Positions 1,103-2,744 of a stretch of 33,431 nt of DNA are shown here, in pieces (position 1 is the stretch's first letter; each line of letters starts with the position of its first letter). Source of the DNA: Bacillota bacterium. GTDB taxonomy: Bacteria; Bacillota; Dethiobacteria; DTU022. Position numbers and translations under genes: made by a program. The stretch is taken from the NCBI GenBank assembly GCA_016874655.1, contig VGTO01000014.1:1-33431 (forward strand), written 5' to 3'. A model generated the notes under the pieces. That model was not told where the DNA came from, made no database searches, and saw nothing but the letters and a program-made list of their open reading frames with translations.

Positions 1103-2044
1103 TTAGAGCATGGCAACGCCAACAGATGTGATTTCAACCCTGCTGTGCGAAAAAACAGCCGTTTCGACTCCCTCTGTACCAACCTTTATTTCGAGGGTTG
1201 TGATATCCGGCCCTCCCAGTTCGATACCACCGCCTGATTCAATATTAAGAGTCAGCCATCCGGACTCAACAGGATTCAGATGCTTCAACTCACCGGCAGA
1301 TAGAACGGCAATCCCTAAGGCTATTGATCCGGTGCCACAGGAAGGTTCAAAGAAATCATCCTGCACATAGTGGGGAAAAACCACCCGCAAATCACCTTTC
1401 TGCCTGGGATTCCAATCGTATACAGCAACGTTTGGTTCATTTTCACCGGTTTTTTCCATAAAATCATGCTGGATAATTTGCAGAATATCACGGGTCTTTT
1501 GATTCCAACTGACAAAGTCAAGACCCGGGTATGCCGTCTCAAAGTGGTCAGCATTGATTACTAAGAATTTACCGGCCCGCATATATTTCAGCTCACCATA
1601 ACATAGCGCGCCTACTCCTCGCTCGTAGCACTCTTTAACGAAGCAGTCCATATCTGTTTTAATCTTTAAAGCTTTTTTCCCATCAGTAACAATCTCAAGT
1701 GCTGTCGGACCGCAACCGGTTATCAGCATCGTTTGAACAGGGTTAAGGGAAAGATCGATCCCATAATATTTGCCCAGTTCTGTTTCAACCAGGGCCGCTC
1801 CCAACACCTGTGTAAAACCGCCACAGGCACTGATGAAACAAGGGACGGAAGGTTCCGCTATTTTAACCTCAATTTCACCTTTTTTGCTGCCATGATAGAG
1901 AATACCTGTCTCATGGGCATGTAGATAATTCGGCCCCATCAGTTTTACAGCTGTTTCAAGTTCGGTCCCCTCAGGGATCTGATCTCCGCGCATCAGAATA
2001 ATCAGGTTGCCACCCATGTGTCCGCGGACAAAATCTAACTTCAT
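1103..2044 (-). CDS. DapF/PhzF-fold (diaminopimelate epimerase-like) isomerase/racemase
   Basis: Two cysteine motifs in DapF-like arrangement, SACGG... and EPSCGTGSIALG; glycine-rich C-terminal half; ATG preceded by GAGGATG. Confidence 0.6.
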   Translation of the reverse strand: MKLDFVRGHMGGNLIILMRGDQIPEGTELETAVKLMGPNYLHAHETGILYHGSKKGEIEVKIAEPSVPCFISACGGFTQVLGAALVETELGKYYGIDLSLNPVQTMLITGCGPTALEIVTDGKKALKIKTDMDCFVKECYERGVGALCYGELKYMRAGKFLVINADHFETAYPGLDFVSWNQKTRDILQIIQHDFMEKTGENEPNVAVYDWNPRQKGDLRVVFPHYVQDDFFEPSCGTGSIALGIAVLSAGELKHLNPVESGWLTLNIESGGGIELGGPDITTLEIKVGTEGVETAVFSHSRVEITSVGVAML

Positions 2045-2088
2045 CTTGGAATCATCCTCACTATTTGAATAATTTCCGCTTGTTTTAT

Positions 2089-2105
2089 AGGGTGAAACTC
2101 ACCCC
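2089..2105 (-). promoter_or_regulatory. Candidate bacterial SECIS-like hairpin downstream of the FTR UGA
   Basis: Minus strand GGGGTGA-GTT-TCACCCT: 6 Watson-Crick pairs plus one G-U; 3-nt loop starting with G; loop begins 24 nt after UGA. Confidence 0.35.
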
Positions 2106-2497
2106 TTTAAATGATAGAGGTTTCAGAAACAGTGTCCCATCCTTTTAACATCTCCCATGCGGGTTTCGAGACAAGGACAAATATTTTCCGGAATATTGTC
2201 AAAACGGCAGGGACAGTAAAAGTCGCCGTACATTTCGTGTTTACCAATCAAGCCCTCAATGACCAGTTCCTTATCCTCGTTAAAAGTATAGTCACGCAGG
2301 CGGGCATAGTTTTCAGAACGGTTACGAATCTCGGTTTCCGGATCCTGCGGAAAGCGACGGACCCTCACTTCGGGCTCTAAATCGGTGATCTCCAGCTCCG
2401 CACCGCAAACGGTGCAGATCACTACCTTCCCAACCGCAGGTTCTTCCCTGTAAACAAAGGCAACCCGGCAGACTTCGCAGTAGATCTTAGACTTCAC
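2099..2497 (-). CDS. Zinc-ribbon plus ferredoxin-thioredoxin reductase catalytic-like protein; candidate selenoprotein with in-frame UGA at 2123-2125
   Basis: ORF track gives 2123..2497 (124 aa) ending CPCRFDNIPENICPCLETRMGDVKRMGHCF. The frame continues through UGA as N-L-Y-H-L-K-G then TGA at 2099-2101. CPC, CPC and C-x-[UGA] match the FTR cysteine pattern. N-terminal CxxC...CxxC ribbon. Confidence 0.6.
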
Positions 2498-2744
2498 TTT
2501 TTAACGCCCTTTCAATCTCGTCTTCTTTGTAACCCTGAATTACTGTATCACCAATAACTGTTACAGGAAAGGAACGCCTGCCGGTCAGCTTTTCCACTTC
2601 TTCCAGGGCTACTTTCTGCTCTTCGCCCTGGGCCAGATCGACATCAACACAGTTGTACTGAACTTGATGATCTTCTAAGTATCTTTTAACTTTTTTACAC
2701 CAGGGGCAGGTACTCAAAGCGTATACTTTTACCATTTTTTTCAA
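2487..2744 (-). CDS. Glutaredoxin-like protein (CPWC active site)
   Basis: VYALSTCPWCKKVKRYLEDHQVQYNCVDVD...SFPVTVIGDTVIQGYKEDEIERAL, classic glutaredoxin with cis-Pro; overlaps start of FTR-like ORF. Confidence 0.92.
   Translation of the reverse strand: MKKMVKVYALSTCPWCKKVKRYLEDHQVQYNCVDVDLAQGEEQKVALEEVEKLTGRRSFPVTVIGDTVIQGYKEDEIERALKSEV

Follow-up and report, generated by a model that had tools for sequence, protein, structure and literature searches.

The analysed stretch of DNA (the window) comprises 33,431 nucleotides of contig VGTO01000014.1 from a Bacillota bacterium (assembly GCA_016874655.1) and carries a gene of the ferredoxin-thioredoxin reductase (FTR) family behind a glutaredoxin-like gene (Table 1). 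The conventional reading frame of the FTR gene (2497-2123, minus strand) starts with GTG, spans 124 residues, and ends in the C-terminus CPCRFDNIPENICPCLETRMGDVKRMGHCF (...GHCF), which is followed by UGA. Translation through this codon (2125-2123) continues in frame as NLYHLKG until a second UGA is reached at 2101-2099. This confirms the observation of the first-pass annotation, which had proposed that the first UGA encodes selenocysteine (Sec) in the context C-F-U-N-L-Y and restores the last cysteine of FTRs. If so, standard translation halts one residue short of the active-site selenium, and the gene would therefore look like a truncated FTR in dozens of genomes.

Table 1 Features of the FTR locus, given as positions of the window
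Feature	Position	Strand	Description	Evidence
Glutaredoxin-like partner, YruB-like	2487..2744	(-)	CPWC; overlaps FTR start	PF00462, 57.5 bits
Predicted Sec-FTR gene	2102..2497	(-)	132 residues from a GTG start; UGA-encoded Sec at residue 125	In-frame translation past the TGA, and homologs
LysW-like zinc ribbon, N-terminal	2357..2479	(-)	Residues 7-47 (CxxC...CxxC)	PF21344, 27.3 bits (cut-off 27)
FTR catalytic motif	2123..2215	(-)	CPC-x9-CPC-x13-C-x-U	Alignment of the profile with 7pwe, 4tpu, and Synechocystis 1dj7
Predicted Sec codon (UGA)	2123..2125	(-)	C-F-U-N-L-Y	UGA or Cys at the same column of homologs
Candidate bacterial SECIS apical hairpin	2089..2105	(-)	GGGGTGA-GTT-TCACCCT; spans the stop codon	Conserved stem and spacing
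True stop codon (UGA)	2099..2101	(-)	Located in the 5' arm of the hairpin	TAG/TAA in 9 of 37 distinct relatives

Membership in the FTR family is indicated by the Pfam profile FeThRed_B (PF02943), which the protein matches with 33.3 bits at a cut-off of 22. FTRs possess a redox-active disulfide that is formed by two cysteines (PMC2398784). In the family alignment, to which the structure 1dj7 was aligned, five cysteines and the UGA/Cys column are invariant in the order CPC, CPC, and CxC. A comparison of the family profile with the solved FTRs 7pwe, 4tpu, and 1dj7 places the UGA column on the last cysteine of C-x-C, the residue that Sec had been proposed to restore. In Synechocystis this residue is Cys87, which forms the active-site disulfide with Cys57, while Cys55, Cys74, Cys76, and Cys85 hold the cluster. 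The alignment thus assigns putative roles as cluster ligands to Cys95, Cys107, Cys109, and Cys123, and Cys97 and Sec125 would form the active pair. Family membership further predicts a 4Fe-4S cluster and a ferredoxin-dependent disulfide reduction.

The N-terminal third of the protein is taken up by the zinc ribbon, which was absent from the first-pass annotation and presumably acts as a docking or structural domain. A Foldseek search with the AlphaFold model ranks LysW structures first, with a probability of 1.00 and a best E of 4e-3. The model is good for the zinc ribbon and the helices and of low confidence at residues 97-106, just past the first CPC. With this model, Foldseek recovers LysW and not FTR, and none of its matches lies below E 0.001. 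Both the missing FTR match and the fact that the distance between Cys97 and Sec125 is not measurable are due to the low confidence in this segment.

The UGA is shared across the class to which the genome belongs. The gene is present in 35 of the 98 genomes examined from the class, with a single in-frame UGA in 34 and a cysteine codon in one. The 60-genome set made up of the genome itself and its relatives contains 28 carriers, with UGA at this column in 27 and Cys in one. Among further sequences, UGA is also found in two metagenome-assembled genomes (MAGs) named Pelotomaculum and in Candidatus Formimonas warabiya, which has a complete chromosome. Five Cys forms (CxCGLF/Y) lie outside the class: two in Atribacterota, one in a bog Peptococcaceae MAG, and two in complete genomes from another class of the same phylum. 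The alignment of homologs that the first-pass annotation had suggested shows UGA or Cys in the column, and N-L-Y falls on G-L-F as anticipated there. The closest named record is Firmicutes bacterium UBA993 (86% protein identity), followed by MAGs labelled Syntrophomonadaceae. A family tree, in which few branches are supported, contains three to four changes between the Sec and Cys labels and is compatible with a single origin. The comparisons below are based on 37 distinct UGA and six distinct Cys sequences.

One alternative reading is an ordinary stop at the first UGA, with a protein that ends at GHCF and untranslated codons behind it. UGA is indeed a normal stop in this organism, as the second in-frame UGA, eight codons on, does terminate. 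An ordinary stop at the first UGA, however, would leave 34 genomes of the class with an enzyme that is intact except for the loss of an active-site cysteine. The truncation would occur at one codon in dozens of genomes, precisely where others have Cys. The codons behind the UGA are moreover conserved at the protein level and differ by synonymous changes. Among the 37 distinct sequences, the differences per codon position from the UGA to the hairpin amount to 0.35/0.19/0.58, similar to the upstream coding part (0.31/0.27/0.61), and become flat past the second stop (0.58/0.65/0.62). Single-base differences between codon pairs are synonymous in 1063 cases and not in 259 between the UGA and the hairpin, as opposed to 279 and 910 past the second stop; these counts come from pairs of related sequences and are hence non-independent. 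Judged by these substitution patterns, the codons from the UGA to the hairpin evolve like coding sequence and those past the second stop do not. Together with the homologs that have Cys in place of UGA and the Sec machinery in the genome, this makes an ordinary stop very improbable.

The second in-frame UGA was considered as another Sec codon and ruled out. At this position the 37 distinct sequences have TGA (26), TAG (five), TAA (four), or CAG (two, with a longer tail). The use of other stops by relatives and the end of the coding signal identify this codon as a stop.

Behind the first UGA lies a hairpin that has the features of a bacterial SECIS element. The GTT loop described in the first-pass annotation, 24 nucleotides past the UGA and closed by GGGTGA/TCACCC, is borne out: it begins exactly at this distance and is closed by GGGGTGA/TCACCCT. 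Each distinct UGA sequence (37 of 37) can form a stem of 6 bp or more, with a loop that starts 23-24 nucleotides past the UGA. The loops are 3-4 nucleotides long and mostly GTT, with GTC, AGTT, GGTT, and similar forms also present. In the Cys forms, only 1-4 bp can be paired at this site, and none of the six reaches a 6-bp stem. Hairpins were detected by scripts and chosen afresh for each shuffle, as a permutation of the arms of a fixed hairpin is biased. Under these conditions, the hairpin is found on average in 1.7 of 37 shuffled sequences (maximum five) and in 18 of 37 when the 3' parts are redealt among the sequences (maximum 27). The stem is also maintained by compensatory changes, with the second pair being GC, TA, AT, or CG. 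The stop codon forms part of the 5' arm, so that a different stop is accompanied by a change in the 3' arm, as in GGAGTGA/TCACTCC versus GGAGTAA/TTACTCC. With a G in its small apical loop, the hairpin fits a SECIS-like element and is a candidate target of SelB.

A second reading accepts translation through the UGA and assigns another amino acid to it, for example Trp or Cys inserted by a suppressor or near-cognate tRNA. The comparative coding evidence taken alone demonstrates translation and not the identity of the residue, which leaves room for this reading. Against it stand the nature of the position, a redox residue for which Cys is the alternative among homologs, the hairpin at a fixed distance that occurs in UGA forms only, and a full Sec pathway, Sec-type selD included. 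The genes selA, selB, selC, and selD, for which the first-pass annotation had recommended a search, are all present in the genome. Profile searches yield selA with 595 bits, selB with 382 bits, and selD with 371 bits, all above cut-off and clustered on contig C27, and the tRNA-Sec is located on contig C100 (66.8 bits, anticodon TCA). The selD gene (C27:350-1279), which adjoins selB and selA, contains its own in-frame UGA in TTSAGUAAK. This is the usual Sec motif of SelD, and a second gene of the same genome thus points to Sec as well. Outside this genome, a search of 59 relatives finds selA in 57, among them all those with a UGA gene, some of which have a contig-end fragment only. This co-occurrence fits the proposal, but it discriminates little since nearly all relatives have selA. 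Insertion of an amino acid other than Sec is therefore regarded as highly improbable. A sequencing or assembly error that made TGA from TGC or TGT, conceivable in a fragmented assembly of 152 contigs, is already refuted by the independent genomes with 37 distinct UGA sequences, the complete Candidatus Formimonas warabiya chromosome among them, and is practically negligible. Taken together, comparative sequence analysis assigns a probability of about 0.93 to the reading that the gene encodes a Sec-containing enzyme of the FTR family.

The first-pass annotation had coupled the Sec-FTR to the adjacent glutaredoxin, and this neighbor recurs in all loci examined. A glutaredoxin-like gene lies directly upstream of the FTR gene in 43 of 43 loci (36 distinct), usually with an overlap of a few bases. 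The adjacency holds for FTRs with Sec or Cys, including those of Atribacterota, while SerA and the downstream neighbors are retained in closer relatives only. The active site of the glutaredoxin is CPxC or near it in the readable copies, with the exception of one genome with UPWC. The window's own glutaredoxin reads CPWC at its active site, which rules out Sec there. The conserved adjacency supports the glutaredoxin as the partner, and the family suggests the electron donor and the direction of electron flow. A role of the Sec-FTR between ferredoxin and glutaredoxin is thus probable from family and adjacency. As the genome also encodes an NADPH-type thioredoxin reductase, the Sec-FTR/glutaredoxin pair would be a parallel line and not the only thiol-reducing route.

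Several further observations concern the neighborhood. In the genome with UPWC (L028), the U in the glutaredoxin upstream of the FTR stands for an in-frame TGA that is found in this genome only. A short stem with the loop AGTT lies about 22 nucleotides downstream of this TGA, but a similar stretch occurs in a Cys relative (L029). To judge from its codons, L028 may encode the FTR and the glutaredoxin both as selenoproteins. In another genome (L032), the glutaredoxin gene that precedes the Sec-FTR is broken into two frames, probably by an assembly error. The window's assembly itself contains another contig whose start (C7:1-1014) is 80% identical to window positions 1125-2137, where the tail of the FTR and the gene downstream of it lie. 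Its match to the FTR tail has two in-frame TGA codons, and the contig is either a second copy or comes from a related strain that was binned in. The downstream gene (1103-2044, minus strand) encodes 313 residues and follows the FTR gene in most close relatives. Neither Pfam nor NCBIfam gives a match for it at E 0.001; by eye it is reminiscent of the diaminopimelate epimerase family.

A mechanism can be proposed for the Sec-FTR. The ribosome would decode the first UGA as Sec with the help of SelB, tRNA-Sec, and the hairpin with its loop 24 nucleotides downstream, and would terminate eight codons later at the second UGA within the hairpin. In the folded enzyme, Cys95, Cys107, Cys109, and Cys123 would bind the 4Fe-4S cluster, and a selenenylsulfide between Cys97 and Sec125 would replace the usual active-site disulfide. 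The cluster would receive electrons singly from reduced ferredoxin. Cys97 would attack the disulfide of the glutaredoxin encoded upstream, and Sec125 beside the cluster, as a selenolate, would stay bound to an iron atom until the second electron is delivered. This Fe-Se intermediate is proposed from plant and cyanobacterial FTRs, in which Cys87 moves onto an iron atom while Cys57 holds thioredoxin. To our knowledge, an iron-selenium catalytic step is known for no FTR. The combined proposal is tentative, with chances slightly short of even: an unlisted Sec-FTR subfamily that is widespread within one class of anaerobic Firmicutes, a dedicated two-gene line from ferredoxin to glutaredoxin, and a selenolate that binds the 4Fe-4S cluster in the one-electron intermediate. 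Sec at the cluster-side position would be a natural selenium probe of the one-electron steps of FTRs, where electrons are shared between the cluster and the active-site chalcogen. The gene pair also points to a conserved, probably ferredoxin-linked thiol system of anaerobes that includes a glutaredoxin of its own.

The open-licence literature searched yielded no account of a one-Sec, zinc-ribbon, glutaredoxin-linked FTR subfamily and nothing direct on FTR Cys87, on a methanogen FTR with glutaredoxin, or on the FTR intermediate. The closest solved structures by sequence are 7pwe (FtrB) and 4tpu, which share the CPC...CPC...C-Y-C-x-L-Y motif and differ by having Cys instead of Sec and other extra domains. 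The entry 4tpu carries the name rubredoxin and presumably originates from Methanosarcina acetivorans. The ferredoxin disulfide reductase of Methanosarcina barkeri (Wei et al. 2015, cited in PMC11846895) is reportedly FTR-like, works with a glutaredoxin-like redoxin, and is said to feed class III ribonucleotide reductase. It resembles the present pair in this combination but is archaeal and is not known to contain Sec. The catalytic subunit of plant and cyanobacterial FTRs (1dj7, 2pu9) has the same motif order, and its last CHC cysteine falls on the Sec125 column, whereas the spacing between its CPC motifs is longer. These FTRs have a variable-chain partner and use thioredoxin as substrate.

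Global Ocean Sampling sequences had led to the prediction of two Sec-FTRs, and in one of them Sec takes the place of both redox cysteines (PMC2398784). Later reviews list the FTR selenoprotein as CxU (PMC9312934, PMC13188914), and a 2026 review contains a single FTR entry and mentions neither LysW nor Pelotomaculum. The marine sequences and the NCBIfam double-Sec model NF041072 (FtrB_double_U) share with the present protein the FTR catalytic family and Sec at C-x-U of the redox-active pair. Against NF041072, the protein scores 28.3 bits, below the cut-off of 160, and in place of the model's two Sec, the first CPC has Cys in the 28 relatives read and in the family alignment. Sec-FTRs are thus already known. 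In contrast to the double-Sec form, the protein described here belongs by its sequence to a different subfamily of anaerobic Firmicutes with one Sec, a LysW-like zinc ribbon, and a glutaredoxin partner.
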